NCBI GenBank assembly: GCA_030039095.1
Contig: JASHQP010000674.1
Coordinates: forward strand, 1 to 10,699
Reading direction: 5' to 3'
DNA length: 10,699 bases
From: Streptosporangiaceae bacterium
Lineage (GTDB): Bacteria; Actinomycetota; Actinomycetes; Streptosporangiales; Streptosporangiaceae
Shown here: in pieces, positions 96 to 10,699 of the stretch
Layout of the letters: every line of letters starts with the position of its first letter
How positions within the stretch are numbered: the first letter of the stretch is position 1
The notes under the pieces: generated by a model
What the model was told of the DNA's origin: nothing
Database searches by the model: none
The model's input: only the letters and a program-made list of their open reading frames with translations
Program-made: the position numbers and the translations under genes

Positions 96-1049
96 CTACT
101 CGACTCGCTGCAGCCGGATACGGGGGTCGAGGAGGGTGTAGAGCACGTCGGCCAGCAGCGTCGCCACCAGGTACACGACGCCGATGACCAGCACGCCCGC
201 CTCGAGCATCGGGAAGTCCTTGTCGACGGCCGCGGTATAGATCAGCCTGCCGATGCCGGGGTAGTCGAACAGCGTCTCGATCACGACCAGCCCGCCGATC
301 AGGTACCCGGCCTGGGTTGCGATGACGGTAATGGCCGGGAGCAACGCGTTGCGCAGCACGTGGCGGCGGATGACCACGCGGCGCGGCAGGCCCTTGAGCG
401 TTGCGGTGCGCACGTAGTCGGAGTCCAGCGCCTCTATCGTGCCGGCGCGGGTCATCCGGGCGATGTAGCCGAAGAGGATGAGCACCAGCGGGATGGCCGG
501 CAAGATCAGGTACCGGATCTGGGTGAGGAACCCTGATCCGGCGGGCGCGTCGGCCGTGACGGGGAGGACCCTGAGCCCGATCGCGAAGATCACGATGAGC
601 ACAATCCCGGAAACGAACTCGGGAACCGTGGACAGCGACATCCCGGTCAGGGTGATCAGGCGGTCAATTGGCCGGCCCCGGTTCAGCGCGGCAGCGACGC
701 CGCCCAGGATGCTCAGCGGGACCAGGATCACGGCGGCCACCGCGGCCAGCTTGAGCGAGCGCCCGAGCGCCGGGAACAGGAACGAACTGACCGGGGCACG
801 GTACTGGTAGGACATGCCCATATCACCGTGGATCGCGCCGCTCACCCAGCTCCAGTACTGCGTGACCAGCGGCCGGTTGACGCCCAGGCTGCTGTCCAGC
901 GCGCTGACGGCATGCTGCGACGCGAACGGGCCGAGGATGGCCCGGCCCGGGTCGCCGGGCAGCACCTGCCCAGCGAAGAAGATGATCATGCTGAGCAGCG
1001 CCAGCGTCAGCACGGCGAGCCCCAGGCGTGTCAGCAGGTACCGGGCCAT
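96..1049 (-). CDS. ABC transporter permease, DppB/OppB type (binding-protein-dependent inner-membrane component)
   Basis: A 317-residue integral membrane protein, one half of the pore of a peptide/opine/nickel-class ABC importer. It begins MARYLLTRLGLAVLTLALLS, the usual DppB first helix, followed by the family's GDPGRAILG segment and LGVNRPLVTQYW. Further hydrophobic stretches follow. The cytoplasmic EAA loop that contacts the ATPase is recognisable as DYVRTATLKGLPRRVVIRRH, followed by NALLPAITVIA, and the C-terminus has the typical LFDYPGIGRLIYTAAVDKDFP and DPRIR motifs. Length is normal for the family. An in-frame start exists 31 codons upstream, but that extension is Arg/Pro-rich and unlike the family. 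The ATG at 1049 has AGGGAGG (1053-1059) at good spacing. It lies 58 bases after the binding-protein gene and is followed immediately by the probable DppC start. No ATPase gene is in view; it may lie beyond the left edge. Confidence 0.95.
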   Translation of the reverse strand: MARYLLTRLGLAVLTLALLSMIIFFAGQVLPGDPGRAILGPFASQHAVSALDSSLGVNRPLVTQYWSWVSGAIHGDMGMSYQYRAPVSSFLFPALGRSLKLAAVAAVILVPLSILGGVAAALNRGRPIDRLITLTGMSLSTVPEFVSGIVLIVIFAIGLRVLPVTADAPAGSGFLTQIRYLILPAIPLVLILFGYIARMTRAGTIEALDSDYVRTATLKGLPRRVVIRRHVLRNALLPAITVIATQAGYLIGGLVVIETLFDYPGIGRLIYTAAVDKDFPMLEAGVLVIGVVYLVATLLADVLYTLLDPRIRLQRVE

Positions 1050-1052
1050 GTC

Positions 1053-1059
1053 CCTCCCT
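1053..1059 (-). promoter_or_regulatory. Ribosome binding site fixing the permease start
   Basis: On the minus strand the sequence reads AGGGAGG just before the ATG at 1049. This strong Shine-Dalgarno match favours the internal ATG over the upstream in-frame start at 1142. Confidence 0.7.
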
Positions 1060-1107
1060 GGCGACGGCCGGCGAGCCCGGCGCGCGGGGCGGACCGGGAC
1101 AACAGCC

Positions 1108-2808
1108 TCAGCTCTTGGTCGCGTTCCACAGGAACACAGCACCCATGGCCAGCGGGTAAACGCCGGTCACGTTCTTCTGCGAGGCGCTCAGGTAGTCGTA
1201 GAAGTACGGGTAGATGATCGGCGTCTCGTCCAGCAGCAGGGCCTCGATCTGGCCGGCCAGGCGCCGCTGCGTCGACAGGTCGGGACTGGCGACGAACTCC
1301 CTGGACAGCTGGTCGTAGGTGGGGTCGCTGAACCGTGCCGCGTTCCACGCACCCTGTCCGGTCTTGGCGTTGGTGGACTGCAGGGGTGCCTGGAGGAAGA
1401 GATTGGGCACGGCGCGCGCGGAGTAGTCGACCAGGCTCATCTCCCCGTCCAGCCAGTCCGACTTGCCGAACACGGCGCTGCCGTAGTACTTGGTGGTGGT
1501 TTCGACCGTGAGCTTGATATCGACCCCGATCTGCGCGGCCGACTGCTTCACGATCTGCGCGAAATCCGGCATCTCCTGAAGCTGCTCGGTGAGCAGCGGG
1601 GTGGCGAAGCCACGCGGCACTCCGCCCTTGGCCAGCAGTTCCTTGGCCAGCTTCAGGTTCTTGGAGCGCTGCGGGACGCTCGTGTCGGTCGCCTTGAACA
1701 CCGGCGCGAACGGGCTGTCGTTCCCCACCTGCGCGTAGCCCTTGAACAGCGCAGCCACGATCCCCGGCCGGTCCAGCGTGCAGGCGATGGCCTGGCGGAC
1801 GTACTTGCTCGTGAACGGTGCGACGTCGGTACGCATCGACAGCTCGCGGTGGGTGCTGGCTTTCAGGGCGGTCACGTTGTAGCCGCCGGTGAGCAGCTGC
1901 GGGCTGACCGCCACCGAGAACTGGTCAACGCAGTCCACCGCGCCGGCCGCGAGGGCGGACGTGCGCGCCGCCTCGTCTGGATAGAAGGTGAACTCGACGC
2001 TGCCGGGCAGCGCGGCCTTGCCCCAGTAGTGCGGGTTACGGGCGAACGAAGCGCCGACGTTCGGCGTATAGCTGGTCTTGATGAACCTGCCGGTGCCGAC
2101 GAACGACTTCTGGTAGTTGTCGTAGTCGTAGCCGTTCGGGACGATGATCATGTTGTAGTTGTCCGGCGACACCATGTCCAGGAAGCTGGCATTCGGTCCC
2201 TCCAGGTGAAACGCGATGGTCGAGTCGTCGACCTTGACCACCCCGTCCGGGACCAGCGTGCCGGCAAAAACCGACAGCGCGTTGGCCGAGCTGTTCGGGT
2301 CGCACTGGCTCTTGAAGCTGTAGACGACGTCGTCAACGGTCATCGGCGTGCCGTCGTTGAACTTCACCCCCTGGCGGATCTTGAAGGTCCACACGCTCGC
2401 GTCCGCGTTGGGACTCCAGCTTGTCGCCAGCCAGGGGTGGTAGTTGTACTGCTGGTCGATGAACACCAGCCACTCACCGACCTGGGCGATCATCTCCCCG
2501 CTGCCCTGGTCGGTGAGCGTGATCGGGTTGATCGCCGCGGCCGGCCCGATGATGCCGATCGTGATCGTCGCGCCCGCGTGGCCCGTGGCCGCCGCGGTGG
2601 AACGCGGTGCCGGGCTGCCGCAGGCATCCAGGATGCCCCCGAGAATGGGAGCGGATAGGCCGATCATCGTGCCGCGGCGGATGAACTCCCGCCTGCTCAG
2701 CCGGCCCGCGACGAACTCGTCGATGACGTGCTCCTGGACCTGGCCCCGTCCGCTCCTGAAGCCGTCGAGTCTGCGGTGGGCTATGGTTCGCATGCTGCTG
2801 GTATCCAT
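1108..2808 (-). CDS. ABC transporter substrate-binding lipoprotein, family 5 (SBP_bac_5), Tat-type signal
   Basis: A 566-residue extracytoplasmic solute receptor of the peptide/opine/nickel class that delivers ligand to the DppB/DppC-type permeases encoded downstream. After about 37 hydrophilic residues comes a twin-arginine-like signal (SRREFIRRG, residues 38-46), a hydrophobic stretch, and a lipobox L60-D61-A62-C63, so Cys63 should be lipidated after Tat export. Mature-domain hallmarks include WTFKIRQGVKFNDGTPMTVDDVVYS and, later, VRQAIACTLDRPGIVAALFKGYA. This class binds ligands from oligopeptides to opines and sugars, so the substrate is not predictable. The ATG at 2808 is chosen because AAGGGAG (2818-2824) lies nine bases upstream. 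The TTG at 2817 abuts that site and is unlikely. The gene follows the MmgE/PrpD gene by 53 bases in an apparent operon. Confidence 0.95.
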   Translation of the reverse strand: MDTSSMRTIAHRRLDGFRSGRGQVQEHVIDEFVAGRLSRREFIRRGTMIGLSAPILGGILDACGSPAPRSTAAATGHAGATITIGIIGPAAAINPITLTDQGSGEMIAQVGEWLVFIDQQYNYHPWLATSWSPNADASVWTFKIRQGVKFNDGTPMTVDDVVYSFKSQCDPNSSANALSVFAGTLVPDGVVKVDDSTIAFHLEGPNASFLDMVSPDNYNMIIVPNGYDYDNYQKSFVGTGRFIKTSYTPNVGASFARNPHYWGKAALPGSVEFTFYPDEAARTSALAAGAVDCVDQFSVAVSPQLLTGGYNVTALKASTHRELSMRTDVAPFTSKYVRQAIACTLDRPGIVAALFKGYAQVGNDSPFAPVFKATDTSVPQRSKNLKLAKELLAKGGVPRGFATPLLTEQLQEMPDFAQIVKQSAAQIGVDIKLTVETTTKYYGSAVFGKSDWLDGEMSLVDYSARAVPNLFLQAPLQSTNAKTGQGAWNAARFSDPTYDQLSREFVASPDLSTQRRLAGQIEALLLDETPIIYPYFYDYLSASQKNVTGVYPLAMGAVFLWNATKS

Positions 2809-2817
2809 AGGCGACAA

Positions 2818-2824
2818 CTCCCTT
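2818..2824 (-). promoter_or_regulatory. Ribosome binding site of the substrate-binding protein gene
   Basis: Minus-strand AAGGGAG lies nine bases before the ATG at 2808. It would directly touch the alternative TTG at 2817, so it selects the ATG as start. Confidence 0.65.
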
Positions 2825-2861
2825 GATGCGTTCAGTTCGCGCTGTGGTGCTGTCGGCGTCG

Positions 2862-4286
2862 TCAGGCACCAGTCGGCTGCAATGCCGATGTCAGCCGATC
2901 CATCAGGTCGGCGACGTCTTCCGCAAGTTCCAGCTCGAGGAAGGCCGAGGTCATCTCCTTGATGCTGGCCGGGGCCAGGCTGCCTTCAGCGAGCCAGGCG
3001 AACTTGCGGCATATATCTTCTTCTCGCCAGCCAGGCTCCGGGTACAGGACGTGCTCGACCAGGCCAGATGTGACAGACCGTCCATCGGTGAGCGTGATGG
3101 TGACGACCGCGGCATCCTTGCCCTCGGGGTCGTTGCGCTCCGACAAGTAGTACAGCCTGTCCAGCTCGGCAGAGACACGCGCCTCCACCCGGGAGCACAG
3201 GTCTGCGTGGGAGACCGACGAGAGCGCCTGGTCACTTACCTGAGCGGGGCCGACCTGCTTGTCAAGGATCAAGGCGGCGATCGGCCACGCCAGGCTGAAC
3301 TGCGCCTCCTCCGTTGTGGCCGGGACACCGGTGCCCAGGCGGACCGCATCGGCGTAGGTCTCGACGAGGATCTTGCCGATCATGTCCGGGTGTATGTCAT
3401 GCCGCGCGAGCATCTGCTCCACCGCCAGCAGGGCCGGGTGAGCCCAGGCACAGCAGCTGTACCGCTTCCAGGTGATCCCGTGCGGCAGCAGGTACTCACG
3501 GCCAAGGTCGTCGGCGAAGCCCCGGTACTCCGGCAGGTCCAGGCTTGGCTGGATGCCGGTGAACCCCCTGACCGCGAGGTCGGCGGCCAGCAGGCCGGTC
3601 AGTGCGCCGGGCCCGACACCGTGCTTGACCATCGCCGGGTGGTCAACGTCGCGCATCAGCTCCAGATGCGGGGAGTGGTACTCGGCAATGCCCAGGGCGT
3701 GCCGGGTGGCGTCAGCGTCCGCCTCGAGCACGCGGCAGGCAATGGCCGCGCACGCGATGGCCCCCCACGATCCGCATGCCCGGTAGGCGCGCTCGGCGGA
3801 GCCAACCTGGCTTGCCGGGAAGTTCATGCAGCGGCCTGCGCGGAAGGCGATCTCGTAGCCGATGACGACCGCAAGCAGCAGTTCCCTGCCGGACAGGTGC
3901 TCGTGCTCGGCGAGCGCCAGCGCCGCCGGGACAACCTGCGCCCCGGGATGCCCCCAGGTGTAGATGCCGACGTCGTCGACGTCGACCGCGTTGGCCGCGA
4001 CCGCGTTGGCGAACGCGGCCCCGGCCGCTCCGGCCCGGCTGCCGCCGACGATCAGGTGCGCCTGCGGCGACGGCCACCAGGCAGCGGCCGTGTCTGCCGC
4101 GATCCACGCCGACCGGGCCTGGCGGCCGGCCAGCATCGCGCCCATCGTGTCGATGACGCACATGACCGCGCGCGCCGCCACGTCGCGGGGAAGGTCCTCC
4201 CACGCGAGGCCGGTTATGAAGTTCACCGCAGGCGACGGGTCCGACGGGCGCAGACCGGCTGCCAGGCCCGGCTCGCCTTCTGCCAT
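2862..4286 (-). CDS. MmgE/PrpD family protein (2-methylcitrate dehydratase / cis-aconitate decarboxylase / iminodisuccinate epimerase superfamily)
   Basis: A 474-residue cytoplasmic enzyme covering the whole MmgE/PrpD fold. Family signatures run in order: helical N-terminus with VIDTMGAMLAG (45-54), the conserved acidic and histidine stretch VDVDDVGIYTWGHPGAQVVPAALALAE (101-127), KHGVGPGALTGLLAADLAVRGFTG (221-244), WKRYSCCAWAHPALLA (273-288) and AQFSLAWPIAALI (328-340). The C-terminal lid domain includes VTITLTDGRSVTSG (395-408). Known members dehydrate 2-methylcitrate, decarboxylate cis-aconitate or epimerise iminodisuccinate, so a role on a small polycarboxylate or its amino derivative is likely; the specific reaction is not readable. 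It is not beside prpB/prpC homologues, which argues against a housekeeping methylcitrate cycle. It is the first gene of the importer operon. The ribosome binding site is weak (GGTGGTG). Context suggests it acts on the imported compound (inference). Confidence 0.93.
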   Translation of the reverse strand: MAEGEPGLAAGLRPSDPSPAVNFITGLAWEDLPRDVAARAVMCVIDTMGAMLAGRQARSAWIAADTAAAWWPSPQAHLIVGGSRAGAAGAAFANAVAANAVDVDDVGIYTWGHPGAQVVPAALALAEHEHLSGRELLLAVVIGYEIAFRAGRCMNFPASQVGSAERAYRACGSWGAIACAAIACRVLEADADATRHALGIAEYHSPHLELMRDVDHPAMVKHGVGPGALTGLLAADLAVRGFTGIQPSLDLPEYRGFADDLGREYLLPHGITWKRYSCCAWAHPALLAVEQMLARHDIHPDMIGKILVETYADAVRLGTGVPATTEEAQFSLAWPIAALILDKQVGPAQVSDQALSSVSHADLCSRVEARVSAELDRLYYLSERNDPEGKDAAVVTITLTDGRSVTSGLVEHVLYPEPGWREEDICRKFAWLAEGSLAPASIKEMTSAFLELELAEDVADLMDRLTSALQPTGA

Positions 4287-4423
4287 CTGTCACCACCGTC
4301 CCCGGCGCGCCGCTGAATTTCCTTGCGCATAGAGATATGAGATTGAGCAGTGAGATTACTAAGATGTGAATACACCTGTAAAGGCCGGGATCTACTTGTT
4401 TGTAAGGACACACGGGAGCACGG
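4287..4423. promoter_or_regulatory. AT-rich divergent promoter/operator region between the PrpD operon and the fused regulator
   Basis: This gap is markedly more AT-rich than its surroundings. On the plus strand, ATGAGA (4337-4342), 17 bases, then TAAGAT (4360-4365) is a plausible sigma-70-like promoter for the regulator. On the minus strand, TTTACA (4382-4377), 18 bases, then TAATCT (4358-4353) could serve the PrpD operon, so the two would overlap. Two direct copies of TGAGATT (4338-4344 and 4351-4357, 13 bases apart) overlie the plus-strand -35 and spacer. A small palindrome TACA-CC-TGTA lies at 4371-4380, and TAC-N6-GTA at 4393-4404. The regulator's site GGGAG is at 4414-4418. The promoters and repeats are weak matches read by eye. 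Confidence 0.4.
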
Positions 4424-5506
4424 ATGAGCTCAGGCGCAAGTCAGCCTGCTCCGGCGCGACAAGAGGGCAGCGCGGATGCGCGGCCTGGCGGCGGCGACCC
4501 CCAGGAAGCGGCTGCGCTAGGGGTCATCTGGCGGGCGGTGTACTCGCCGGACGGCAGCACCGCCAGATGCCGCAAGTGTGACGCCCGCCGGCCGTTCCAC
4601 CGGGTGTCCGCCAGGCGCGCCTTCGCCTGCGACCGGTGCGGATCCCACTTGTACCCGGCGTCGGAAACGCCGTTCGCGGGGTCCCCGCTGCCGCTGACCG
4701 CGTGGCTGGAAACCACCGCTGCGGTCGTCGGATCCACCGGGCGGGTGAGCCCGCGCCAGCTAGCCGACGCGCTGCACCTGAGCTACCGGACCGCCTGGCG
4801 GATGTGCCGCAAGATCCAGGACAGCCTGGCTGCCGGCGGCAAGCCCGGGTGTCTGCTACAGGATCTCGCCGCCAGCTGGGCGCGCCAGGTCACGCCCGCG
4901 GCCAGGCCCGCCGCTGCCCTGGACCGGCCCGCGGACCGGATCCGCGCCGCCGCATGCCAGGTGATGGCCAAGCGCGGCGCTTCCGCGGCCCGGATCTCCG
5001 ACATCGCCGCGGCGGCCGGGGTCTCGGTCGGCAGCGTCCACTACTACTTCCGCAGCAAGGACGAGGCGCTGCTCGACGCGCTGCGCTGGGCCGGGGAGCA
5101 GCTGCACGAGAGCCTGCAGCGCCTGCGCGACGCGGACGTCACTCCCATCGAGCATCTGCGAAGGCTGCTGGAGTTGAGTTTCCCCAGCAACGAAGGACTG
5201 CACAACGAGTATCTGCTCTGGCTCGAGGTGTGGGTCCGCGTCCGCGATCATCCTGCGTTCCTCGAGGAGTGCCTGATCATGTCGGGCCGCTGGCACGAGG
5301 CGGTCCGGCAGGTCTTCGGGCGGGGTGCCGCGGCCGGGCTGCTCACCCCGGTCACCGACCTCGAGGAGGTCTGTGAGCGCTACGTGGCCATGGCCGAGAG
5401 CCTGGCCTACCGCGCCGTGCTCGGGTACCGAACCCCGGAACGGGCCCGGGAGATCCTCACCCGTTTCACGGCCGAGCAGCTTGGGCTGCCGGCCGGGGAG
5501 TTCTGA
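4424..5506 (+). CDS. Fused regulator: IS1595-transposase-like zinc ribbon/HTH + TetR-family repressor
   Basis: A 360-residue protein of two unrelated DNA-binding parts. Residues 49-72 hold CRKC...CDRC (Cys49, Cys52, Cys69, Cys72), a four-cysteine zinc ribbon. It continues as ETPFAGSPLPLTAWL (81-95) and GRVSPRQLADALHLSYRTAWRMCRKIQ (106-132). This order (ribbon, then 'T-x-F-x-x-S-x-x-P-L-x-x-W', then an HTH ending in TAWRM) is that of IS1595/ISXO2 transposase N-termini. No DDE nuclease domain follows. After a linker, residues 171-216 form a TetR HTH (ISDIAAAAGVSVGSVHYYFRSKDEALLDAL), and 217-360 a helical ligand/dimerisation domain of normal length resembling BetI-type members. The ATG at 4424 has GGGAG five bases upstream. 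It probably controls the divergent PrpD/transporter operon and perhaps itself (inference). The ribbon may add DNA contacts or zinc sensing. Confidence 0.88.
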   Translation: MSSGASQPAPARQEGSADARPGGGDPQEAAALGVIWRAVYSPDGSTARCRKCDARRPFHRVSARRAFACDRCGSHLYPASETPFAGSPLPLTAWLETTAAVVGSTGRVSPRQLADALHLSYRTAWRMCRKIQDSLAAGGKPGCLLQDLAASWARQVTPAARPAAALDRPADRIRAAACQVMAKRGASAARISDIAAAAGVSVGSVHYYFRSKDEALLDALRWAGEQLHESLQRLRDADVTPIEHLRRLLELSFPSNEGLHNEYLLWLEVWVRVRDHPAFLEECLIMSGRWHEAVRQVFGRGAAAGLLTPVTDLEEVCERYVAMAESLAYRAVLGYRTPERAREILTRFTAEQLGLPAGEF

Positions 5507-5525: not shown

Positions 5526-6224
5526 TCAGCCGCCATTGCCCGCCGGCACGCCGACAGCACCACGGAGCAGCTCCACGAACTCGCGGAGCCGCTCGTCGCG
5601 CAGCTCAGGCGGCTGGGTGTGGTACCCGAACAGGCCGGGGTCGAGCTCCTCGGTCACCATCGCGTCCTGGCAGCGGTCCATCAGCCAGTTGACCAGGGAA
5701 ACGATCATTCTCGTGTCGATGTCCCTGCGCACCTCACCGCGTTCGATGCCGAACTGGACGAACGCGGTGGTGCCGTACGGGTCCTCGCGCAGCAGGTACT
5801 GGGTGATCGCTCGCCTCAGCGGCAGGTCGGAGCAGTAGCTGCCGATCAGGGTGACCCGGTAAGGGACCCAGTCCTCGTGAATGAGGTGCGGGGTATGCGC
5901 GAGCCAGTAACTGATCGTCGCGAAAAATCCCCGGTCGAGCGTCTCGGGCGGCGCATCCAGGTACTTGCTGAACGAGCGCGTCGCCGCCTGGTACGCGCTG
6001 AAGAAAAGCCCGGCCTTGCTGGCGAAGTGGCTGAAAACGCTGCCCTTGGACACCCCGGCGTCGGCGGCCACCGCCTCCACCCGGGTTCCCTCGTAACCGT
6101 CGACGGCGAAGTGCTGCATGGCGGCGGCGACGATCCGCTCGCGCGTTGCCTGCTGTCTCGGCAGCGCCCGCACTGGTTTGCGGCGCTGCCTACCCAAGGA
6201 AGGCACTGATTGACCAAAAGTCAT
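5526..6224 (-). CDS. TetR/AcrR family transcriptional regulator
   Basis: A 232-residue repressor-type protein. After a basic leader (GRQRRKPVRALPRQQ, 11-25) comes the TetR N-terminal domain: RERIVAAAMQHFAVDGYEGTRVEAVAADAGVSKGSVFSHFASKAGLF (28-74), with the recognition helix at about 57-67. The remaining residues are a helical ligand and dimer domain that I cannot assign to a named subfamily. The ATG at 6224 has no clear Shine-Dalgarno sequence (GGTTTGCAAATCATAA precedes it). The message may be nearly leaderless, or translation may begin at the in-frame GTGs (codons 7 or 18), which still precede the HTH. It is divergent from the flavoenzyme operon at 6365 and convergent with the fused regulator, with only 19 bases between stops. 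The most likely target is the shared 6225-6364 promoter region. Confidence 0.93.
   Translation of the reverse strand: MTFGQSVPSLGRQRRKPVRALPRQQATRERIVAAAMQHFAVDGYEGTRVEAVAADAGVSKGSVFSHFASKAGLFFSAYQAATRSFSKYLDAPPETLDRGFFATISYWLAHTPHLIHEDWVPYRVTLIGSYCSDLPLRRAITQYLLREDPYGTTAFVQFGIERGEVRRDIDTRMIVSLVNWLMDRCQDAMVTEELDPGLFGYHTQPPELRDERLREFVELLRGAVGVPAGNGG
6210..6223. promoter_or_regulatory. Possible operator over the TetR start codon (TTGACC-AAAA-GTCA)
   Basis: TGAC-CAAAA-GTCA (6211-6223) is a short perfect inverted repeat overlapping the minus-strand ATG. Its left half with the preceding T is TTGACC, whose reverse complement is the half-site GGTCAA at 6308-6313 in the same promoter region. That sharing hints at autoregulation, but four-base arms can occur by chance. 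Confidence 0.3.
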
Positions 6225-7975: not shown

Positions 7976-9132
7976 GCCCGGACGTGCTGATCGTCGGCGC
8001 GGGAGTTATCGGCGCCGCGACCGCATACCACCTCAGCAGCCTCGAGGCCGGCGAGGTGACGGTGATCGACAGGGATGTGGTGGGCTCGGGGATGAGCAGC
8101 CGGTCCTCGGCACTGGTCCGGATGCACTACACGTTCCCGCCCGAGGTCGACCTGGCCGTGCGCAGCGACATGATGTTCAGCAACTGGGCGGAGATGACGG
8201 GACGGCCGCCCTGCGTGCGCCGGACGGGCTTTGTCCGGATCGTGCGGCCAGGGGAAGAACCCCAGCTCAGGGCCAACGTGGCAATGCAGCGCCAGCACGG
8301 AGCACGGGCCGAGATCGTGGACGCGGACGCGCTGCGCGAGCTTGCCCCGGGCCTGTACGCCGACGATGTGTCGTGCGCGGCCTGGGAGCAGAACGGCGGG
8401 TACGGCGACGGCGCGCTCGTCGCCGGCGACCTGCTGGCGGCAGCCCGCCAGCGGGGCGTGCGCTACCGTCCGCACGTCCGGGCGGACGCGCTGGTGCGGA
8501 CGGGCGACCGCATCACCGGGGTCAGCACGGCCGAGGGCATCGAGCACGCCGGGGTGGTCGTGCTCGCCACGGGAGTGTGGTCGCCGGCCCTGCTCCGCAC
8601 GGCGGGTCTCGCCCTCCCCATCGAGACCGAGTTCCACGAGGTGGCGGTGCTCGCTCACGACGAGGGCCGAGGCGCGCCCGTGGCCGGCATCGACTCCACC
8701 ACGGGAACCTATTTCCGGCCGGAGGCGGCCGGCCTCATGACGCTCGCCGGGACCTTCGACGGCCCGCGCGGAGCAGACCCCGATTCCATTCCTGACACTG
8801 CACCGGCCGAGAGACTCGCGTCGATCGCCGGATCGGCGGCACGCCGTATTCCCGCCCTGGCCGACGCCGGGATCACGCGGGGCGTCACGGGTGTCTACGA
8901 CATGACACCCGACGCGCGCCCCTTGCTGGGCGGGCTGCCCGGGCTCGGCGGGCTCGTGGTGGCGGCAGGGCTGTCGGGCATGGGCTTCAAGATCTCGCCC
9001 GCGGTGGGCGAGGCCGTCGCCGAACTCGTGCTGCACGGGAAGGCCACTCACGTTGACCTCGAGCCATTCCGGCCCAGCAGGTTCGACGAGGGCCAGCCGA
9101 TCGAGCCCCCGTTCCCTTACTCCGATGACTGA
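7972..9132 (+). CDS. FAD-dependent oxidase, DAO family (sarcosine/glycine oxidase-like)
   Basis: A 386-residue flavoprotein of the D-amino-acid oxidase superfamily, whose members oxidise secondary or primary amines of amino acids. It shows the Rossmann motif VLIVGAGVIGAATAYHL (5-21), Asp33 at the ribose position (VIDRD), an SSRSSALVRMHY segment (42-53) as in sarcosine oxidase-type proteins, the ATGVWS motif (199-204), and a C-terminal DMTPDARPLLGG (310-321) plus GLSGMGFKISPAVGE (333-347) FAD-binding end. I see no obvious cysteine for covalent FAD attachment near the C-terminus. The GTG start at 7972 overlaps the preceding TGA (GTGA) and has AGGAGG five bases upstream (7961-7966), so translation is coupled to the first flavoenzyme. 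An upstream open stretch in this frame is the shadow of the previous gene. Substrate unknown. Confidence 0.93.
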   Translation: MSPDVLIVGAGVIGAATAYHLSSLEAGEVTVIDRDVVGSGMSSRSSALVRMHYTFPPEVDLAVRSDMMFSNWAEMTGRPPCVRRTGFVRIVRPGEEPQLRANVAMQRQHGARAEIVDADALRELAPGLYADDVSCAAWEQNGGYGDGALVAGDLLAAARQRGVRYRPHVRADALVRTGDRITGVSTAEGIEHAGVVVLATGVWSPALLRTAGLALPIETEFHEVAVLAHDEGRGAPVAGIDSTTGTYFRPEAAGLMTLAGTFDGPRGADPDSIPDTAPAERLASIAGSAARRIPALADAGITRGVTGVYDMTPDARPLLGGLPGLGGLVVAAGLSGMGFKISPAVGEAVAELVLHGKATHVDLEPFRPSRFDEGQPIEPPFPYSDD

Positions 9133-10328: not shown

Positions 10329-10637
10329 ATCCACCTGGTGCCTGCGCGCTGCGGCCGCCGCAAGCGTTGCGGCGGGCCACGACGTGGGTCTTGACGTAGG
10401 CCATCAGCTGCCGGATTTCCGACGGGGTGGGCTCGTCCAGGCGGCGGCCGCCCCACTGCCGGTGCCGTCGCTGACGGCCGCCGACACCACCGGGACGTAC
10501 TCGACGAAGGTCGGCACCGGCTTGGAAGGCTGCGGGAGAGCGGTCAGGTCCGCCGGGGACAGGCCCATCCGCTCCAGTACCAGCAGCGCCGCCTCCACGA
10601 GATCCTGCTGGGACGCCTCCGGGGTCACGGCGGTCAT
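10321..10637 (-). pseudogene. Tyrosine-recombinase-type integrase remnant, N-terminal part only, with internal deletion and frameshift
   Basis: The ATG at 10637 has a strong site (AAGGGAGG, 10643-10650) and opens 59 codons ending VPTFVEYVPVVSAAVSDGT (10637-10461). The frame then runs into stop, but after a two-base offset another frame (10458-10321) continues with QWGGRRLDEPTPSEI and QLMAYVKTHVVARRN, to GGRSA, then ends at TAG. Both pieces match, from memory, the N-terminal SAM-like DNA-binding domain of actinomycete site-specific integrases. In those, roughly a dozen residues with a YGSYWNR-like core stand between the two pieces, so I infer an out-of-frame deletion at about 10459-10460. The catalytic domain (Arg, His-x-x-Arg, Tyr) is absent after GGRSA. 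The product is surely inactive. The family call is moderately sure; decay is clear from the frames. Confidence 0.65.
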
Positions 10638-10699
10638 GGCAGCCTCCCTTCGCCGCAGGGGACGGGGGCATGTGCCCGCAGCGCCTGGTCGACCACGGC
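10638..10699. other. Upstream flank of the integrase remnant
   Basis: Apart from the ribosome binding site at 10643-10650 I see no promoter, gene or repeat in this GC-rich stretch before the window ends. Confidence 0.4.

Follow-up and report, generated by a model that had tools for sequence, protein, structure and literature searches.

Architecture of the fusion gene

This study concerns a 360-amino-acid open reading frame (ORF) in a 10,699-nt stretch of Streptosporangiaceae bacterium DNA (GenBank assembly GCA_030039095.1, contig JASHQP010000674.1), the whole of which is referred to here as the window. In this ORF, a zinc ribbon and helix-turn-helix (HTH) of the kind found in IS1595 transposases (residues ~30 to 137, termed the N-module) precede a complete BetI-type TetR repressor (residues 171 to 353). 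The gene and its parts are as follows.

4424..5506 (+): fusion regulator gene, 360 amino acids (38 homologues; structure model with a mean predicted local distance difference test [pLDDT] score of 84.7)
4553..4663 (+): IS1595-type zinc ribbon, residues 44 to 80, with Cys49, 52, 69, and 72 (PF12760 sub-threshold; all four cysteines in 61/61 fusion rows; three strands in the model)
4694..4834 (+): IS1595-type HTH, residues 91 to 137, with YRTAWRM (NF033547 sub-threshold over residues 87 to 136; hhalign with transposase N termini; helices in the model)
4892..4921 (+): flexible linker, residues 157 to 166 (pLDDT <50; linker pN/pS of 0.50 in seven Nonomuraea genes)
4940..5065 (+): TetR_N DNA-binding HTH, residues 173 to 214 (Pfam PF00440, E 2.6e-13, 49.9 bits against a cut-off of 24)
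5144..5482 (+): BetI-type TetR ligand-binding/dimer domain, TetR_C_6, residues 241 to 353 (PF13977, E 1.1e-14, 55.1 bits against a cut-off of 27; best fold matches 4nel, 4jnn, 4ich, and 4kwa)

The original prediction, made from the letters alone, had described a transposase-type ribbon and HTH fused to a full TetR protein, with the DDE nuclease absent. Its sequence landmarks were all located in the ORF: the cysteines are spaced Cys49-x2-Cys52-x16-Cys69-x2-Cys72, ETPFAGSPLPLTAWL occupies residues 81 to 95, and TAWRM occupies residues 123 to 127. Both TetR domains passed their Pfam cut-offs over residues 173 to 353, and the BetI model TIGR03384 was matched at 5.5e-18 with 65.3 bits against a cut-off of 201.3, far below the level of a BetI equivalog. 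No DDE family was matched in the ORF in Pfam and NCBIfam scans, and none turned up when 20 fusion loci, including the window, were searched by tblastn with 9 DDE domains as queries.

Single-sequence matches of the N-module to IS1595 models fell below the curated cut-offs (PF12760, Zn_ribbon_IS1595, residues 44 to 74, E 9e-4, 19.6 bits against 25.4; transposase model NF033547, E 9.9e-6, 25.6 bits against 75), and HTH_24 was matched at residues 105 to 130. Because the ribbon matches were weak, homology was tested at the profile level. When 14 fusion N-modules were aligned by hhalign against 28 N termini of frames carrying an IS1595 DDE domain, the probability was 100% (E 6.2e-43; 110 columns at 38% identity); the 28 frames, each with its own DDE match, had been retrieved with the fusion profile and are thus among the closest available. 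The anticipated profile match was therefore obtained between families and not at single-sequence cut-offs. AlphaFold2 placed a three-stranded ribbon and an HTH (helices at residues 91 to 103, 110 to 117, and 121 to 137) ahead of the TetR fold, with a predicted template modeling score of 0.68 for the whole chain, low confidence in the linker, and a mean pLDDT of 94.1 for the N-module alone. Together, these sequence comparisons support the view that an IS1595-type DNA-binding module was captured onto a full TetR protein with loss of the DDE domain, and that the arrangement is real and conserved.

Distribution and constraint of the fusion family

A protein search that scored the 7,998 candidates with the most shared words returned 38 homologues, whose names include Nonomuraea species and one Mycobacterium sp. 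The same architecture was present in 37 of them; in the exception, P0036, the annotated start falls inside the HTH, leaving it without a ribbon, and it was excluded from the fusion rows. When residues 20 to 150 of P0033 served as the query, nine proteins were found (itself included), all with TetR domains. One peptide pattern, scanned against every species genome, yielded five Nonomuraea fusions, two Thermoleophilia fusions, and one intact transposase. Fusions occurred in 9/54 genomes of the genus of G001 (seven with the window-like group and three with a second group, G004 having both). In the class of G006, 28/149 genomes had an N-module match, and 6 of these held a fusion among the loci listed. 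The corresponding count was 13/396 in the phylum sample, where G001 held the sole fusion among the loci listed, and 2/150 in the family of G001, one being a fusion. None of the 79 N-module frames combined TetR and DDE. The fusion family is real and patchy, and the fusions observed are all from Actinomycetota, which was also the main group searched.

At L074:7960-9354 (-), in a Thermoleophilia metagenome-assembled genome, the fusion gene is apparently frameshifted between the N-module and the TetR half, by decay or assembly error.

Ratios of nonsynonymous to synonymous differences per site (pN/pS) were calculated from the same seven Nonomuraea genes. The ribbon (0.25), the captured HTH region (0.33), and the whole N-module (0.35) lay near the TetR C-terminal domain (0.29), with the TetR HTH lower (0.14) and the linker (0.50) and N-terminal tail (0.62) higher. 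The N-module is under purifying selection and maintained, less tightly than the TetR HTH.

Origin of the N-module

An unrooted N-module tree was built from 101 rows (61 with TetR, 29 with DDE, and 11 with neither) over 123 columns, a short alignment, after removal of P0036 and L048 for gaps. A branch with 100/92 support had all 29 transposases on one side, together with 10 of the 11 rows with neither domain found, and all fusions plus the frameshifted L074 on the other. Because L074 was labeled "other", the TetR label counted as two changes in the tree. The split agrees with a single origin of the fusion, and the module was probably captured once. Identity of the window N-module to the transposases peaks at 40% (L028); with other fusions it ranges from 36 to 97%.

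IS1595-family transposases consist of a zinc ribbon, an HTH, and a DDE domain; their N-terminal ~110 residues are homologous to the fusion, in which TetR stands in place of DDE. The nearest transposase clade, whose ends resemble GGNAAYTATCCCTTGACNG, contains mobile elements. Around the transposases, which were analyzed for terminal inverted repeats (TIRs) and 8-bp duplications, L008, L029, and L051 showed inverted repeats matching at 14 to 16 of 20 bases and perfect 8-bp duplications. A left end like the consensus GGTAATTATCCCTTGACAGG was present in 12 of 24 nearest-clade frames, each scoring above all 60 of its own shuffles.

The IS1595 elements themselves, as delimited by candidate TIRs and 8-bp duplications (L008:4638-6527, L029:1351-3311, and L051 ~1352-3316 in the reversed locus), measure ~1.9 to 2.0 kb, and they may carry passenger DNA, since the right end lies ~0.9 to 1.0 kb past the transposase.

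Relatives of the TetR half

BetI and other TetR_C_6 repressors have the same TetR_N plus TetR_C_6 layout as the fusion, which differs in its extra N-module of ~130 residues. The TetR half is also homologous to that of the XRE-TetR regulators of Pseudonocardiales (Saccharomonospora viridis; PDB 4ich, 4kwa, 4nel, and 4jnn), which carry at the N terminus an XRE/lambda-type HTH (HTH_31, HTH_3) and not an IS1595 module. P0044 is 99% identical to the solved XRE-TetR chain with the same start; HTH_31/HTH_3 were found in P0044 and P0046, and neither was matched in the window fusion protein in the Pfam scan. This closest TetR relative with a structure was crystallized with choline (4kwa) and with trimethylamine.

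The genomic settings differ. XRE-TetR fusion regulators (L089 to L098, P0044 to P0163) adjoin BKACE, 3HCDH, and BCCT genes, unlike the IS1595-type fusion loci, and they are likely carnitine-catabolism regulators.

Neighboring genes

The main neighbors of the fusion gene in the window are listed below.

4287..4423: divergent intergenic region, 137 bp, the presumed operator region (seven Nonomuraea intergenic regions share conserved blocks, of which the window has no more than a part)
2862..4286 (-): MmgE/PrpD-family protein, divergent partner (Pfam; counterpart beside the fusion in 7/7 Nonomuraea genomes)
1108..2817 (-): ABC substrate-binding protein, SBP_bac_5 (Pfam)
96..1142 (-): ABC permease, BPD_transp_1 (Pfam)
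7978..9132 (+): DAO-type flavin adenine dinucleotide oxidase, N-methyltryptophan oxidase/sarcosine oxidase-like, start putative (Pfam; NCBIfam models below cut-off)

The other side of the fusion gene holds a plain TetR, a CrtI-like oxidoreductase, the DAO oxidase (57% identical to the L001 DAO enzyme), and an MBL-fold protein. The plain TetR is an ordinary second gene of this family at 5526-6224 (-), convergent with the fusion gene. An open-ended ORF of 97 amino acids at 10404-10697 (-) had no Pfam match.

In all seven Nonomuraea loci, the divergent gene was a PrpD counterpart with 61 to 64% identity, against at most 35% for any further PrpD match in the same genomes. All seven also carried SBP_bac_3, DAO, and a downstream amidohydrolase, and an ORF of similar length recurred in each, the L001 copy being a fused ABC permease/ATPase. 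Among the Thermoleophilia, genes for MttB-family methyltransferases adjoin the fusion in L006, L007 (two), L075, L076, L077, and L078, divergently except in L078; the L006 MttB, covered by two overlapping matches, may carry a frameshift. The seventh locus of this class, the frameshifted L074, had none of the query genes within 18 kb. The rough chance of MttB adjacency in 6/6 loci is 2e-11 if the loci are taken as independent, an assumption that does not hold for L076 and L077, which share neighbors; adjacency is less rare here than elsewhere because these genomes hold 17 to 37 MttB matches. L075 carries both MttB and PrpD and so connects the two neighbor contexts. L073 is flanked by a B12-binding protein, a URO-D protein, and SBP_bac_5.

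A separate observation concerns the Thermoleophilia sample. G006, G007, G159, G176, G182, and G212 each hold 17 to 37 MttB-family matches, many of those listed having a single in-frame TAG and a few having a TGA, and a PylS match above the curated cut-off was found in 6/6. On sequence grounds, these six genomes are candidate pyrrolysine-using Actinomycetota. A literature search on pyrrolysine with Thermoleophilia turned up one paper, which concerns serpentine soils.

Proposed function and alternatives

We propose, with somewhat better than even confidence, that the fusion protein is a one-component, amine-responsive repressor with two DNA-binding modules per chain, acting at a divergent catabolic promoter. 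A BetI-type TetR dimer would read a core operator in this promoter and would release it on binding a small methylated or quaternary amine of the betaine class. The N-module, an IS1595 transposase zinc ribbon and HTH freed of its nuclease and held on a short linker, would give each dimer two tethered modules able to touch the flanking DNA, for greater specificity or affinity. The regulator would thereby control its own gene and a neighboring catabolic gene, mostly divergent, which is PrpD in the window and in Nonomuraea and MttB in Thermoleophilia. That each chain has two DNA-binding modules, as originally suggested, is likely, the N-module presumably being the second.

Several observations weigh against this proposal. 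The neighbors in L069 to L071 are ALDH and GFO/IDH/MocA proteins, with a nucleobase-type permease also in L069, and those in L072 are an amino-acid permease and a saccharopine-dehydrogenase-type protein. No operator was identified, sites resembling transposon ends are missing from 17 of 19 fusion promoters, and the pN/pS of the N-module exceeds that of the TetR HTH.

One alternative is an ordinary TetR regulator of some unrelated catabolism, its amine link being a coincidence of neighbors. The neighbors do differ between subgroups, and PrpD, amidohydrolase, and CrtI-like enzymes are unspecific to methylated amines; on the other hand, the MttB adjacency in six Thermoleophilia loci, the bridging locus L075, and the presence of choline and of trimethylamine in crystals of the closest TetR with a structure make such a coincidence doubtful, if still credible.

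A second alternative takes up the points about operator, sites, and constraint: the N-module would no longer bind DNA and would persist for its part in folding, in contacts within the dimer, or in binding a partner protein, leaving the TetR half alone to bind the operator. We regard this as unlikely, given that the ribbon and the recognition helix (YKTAWRM-like) are retained at 38% identity with transposases over the 110 aligned columns and that an unrelated HTH in the same place of the nearest solved TetR relatives favors a DNA-binding role there.

A third possibility is that the N-module still reads the IS1595 TIR, in which case the regulator would target either sites derived from transposons or the transposons as such. 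The left end shared by half of the nearest-clade frames speaks for it, as do the promoters of the Nonomuraea loci L003 and L005, where GGTAAATCATTCCTTGACAGG scored 19 bits with one insertion and topped every other window of its own locus. Much of this site is a -35-like TTGACA; with TTGACA masked, the score was 9.5 bits, still above the other windows, and was reached by 8/60 masked shuffles for L003 and 1/60 for L005. L003 and L005 are sisters in the tree, and the resemblance of GGTAAATCATTCCTTGACAGG to a donor-clade transposon end is a lead only. A transposon-end matrix (20 columns, 14 ends) scored near background in 17/19 fusion promoters, with a mean z over all 19 of 0.9 for the 20 columns and 0.2 for the first 12. 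Of eight promoter regions inspected closely, the other six, the window included, lacked a clear transposon-end site. The Nonomuraea intergenic regions contain strongly conserved blocks, but their inverted repeats are short only. These results render continued TIR recognition improbable.

The original prediction had also raised possible metal sensing, in which the ribbon would gate DNA binding. All four cysteines are conserved in the fusions, but they are nearly invariant in the transposases too (26/26, 25/26, 29/29, and 29/29 of rows with a residue), which means that the ribbon is not peculiar to the regulator and makes structural zinc the simpler reading; with no metal-transport family among the scanned neighbor proteins, a metal sensor is very improbable. 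Finally, a sequencing or assembly error joining two genes, which the original prediction had named as a possible refutation, is excluded because the same fusion recurs in 61 rows (60 distinct in the N-module) with the four cysteines kept, also on contigs of 9 to 13 Mb (G673:C1, G693:C1, and G004:C2).

Beyond the proposed repressor, we tentatively suggest a bacterial host-transposase fusion transcription factor. Two or more separate acquisitions from unrelated donors (an XRE HTH in one lineage, an IS1595 module in another) may have supplied a ligand-responsive repressor scaffold for methylated amines with an additional DNA-binding domain. Each dimer would then read a four-part operator or bridge two sites, with the transposase module adapted to recognize new metabolic promoters.

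Novelty and significance

The original prediction knew of no described regulator with this architecture. This holds for the IS1595 variant: no description of a DDE-transposase module on TetR, with donor clade and ends identified, was found in the literature listings searched. It does not hold for the general architecture, which is not new because databases already contain TetR proteins with a second N-terminal DNA-binding domain, one of which (XRE-TetR) is represented in the PDB; JGI, moreover, annotates several homologues as "AcrR family transcriptional regulator/transposase-like protein".

Animals provide well-known examples of host-transposase fusion regulators, those of vertebrates being transposon proteins turned regulators, and TldR is related to TnpB. 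In TldR and the vertebrate fusions, the DNA-binding part of a mobile element is likewise reused for gene control; here, in contrast, the DNA-binding module of a DDE-transposase protein sits on a bacterial ligand-type repressor, with no guide RNA and no nuclease. TldR is likewise a transposon protein turned regulator (PMC13418256). No bacterial host-transposase fusion regulator derived from a DDE element was found described in the literature searched.

With the donor, the recipient, the donor's own TIR ends, and living relatives of both kinds in hand, DNA specificity after capture becomes testable; a motif GGNAAYTATCCC shared by the fusion N-module and a nearest-clade transposase would mean that specificity was retained. 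The family also points to possible regulators of how Actinomycetota use quaternary and methylated amines, the six genomes with a PylS match above cut-off among them. A piece of a selfish element has apparently been recruited into metabolic control, near genes for the breakdown of methylated nitrogen compounds.
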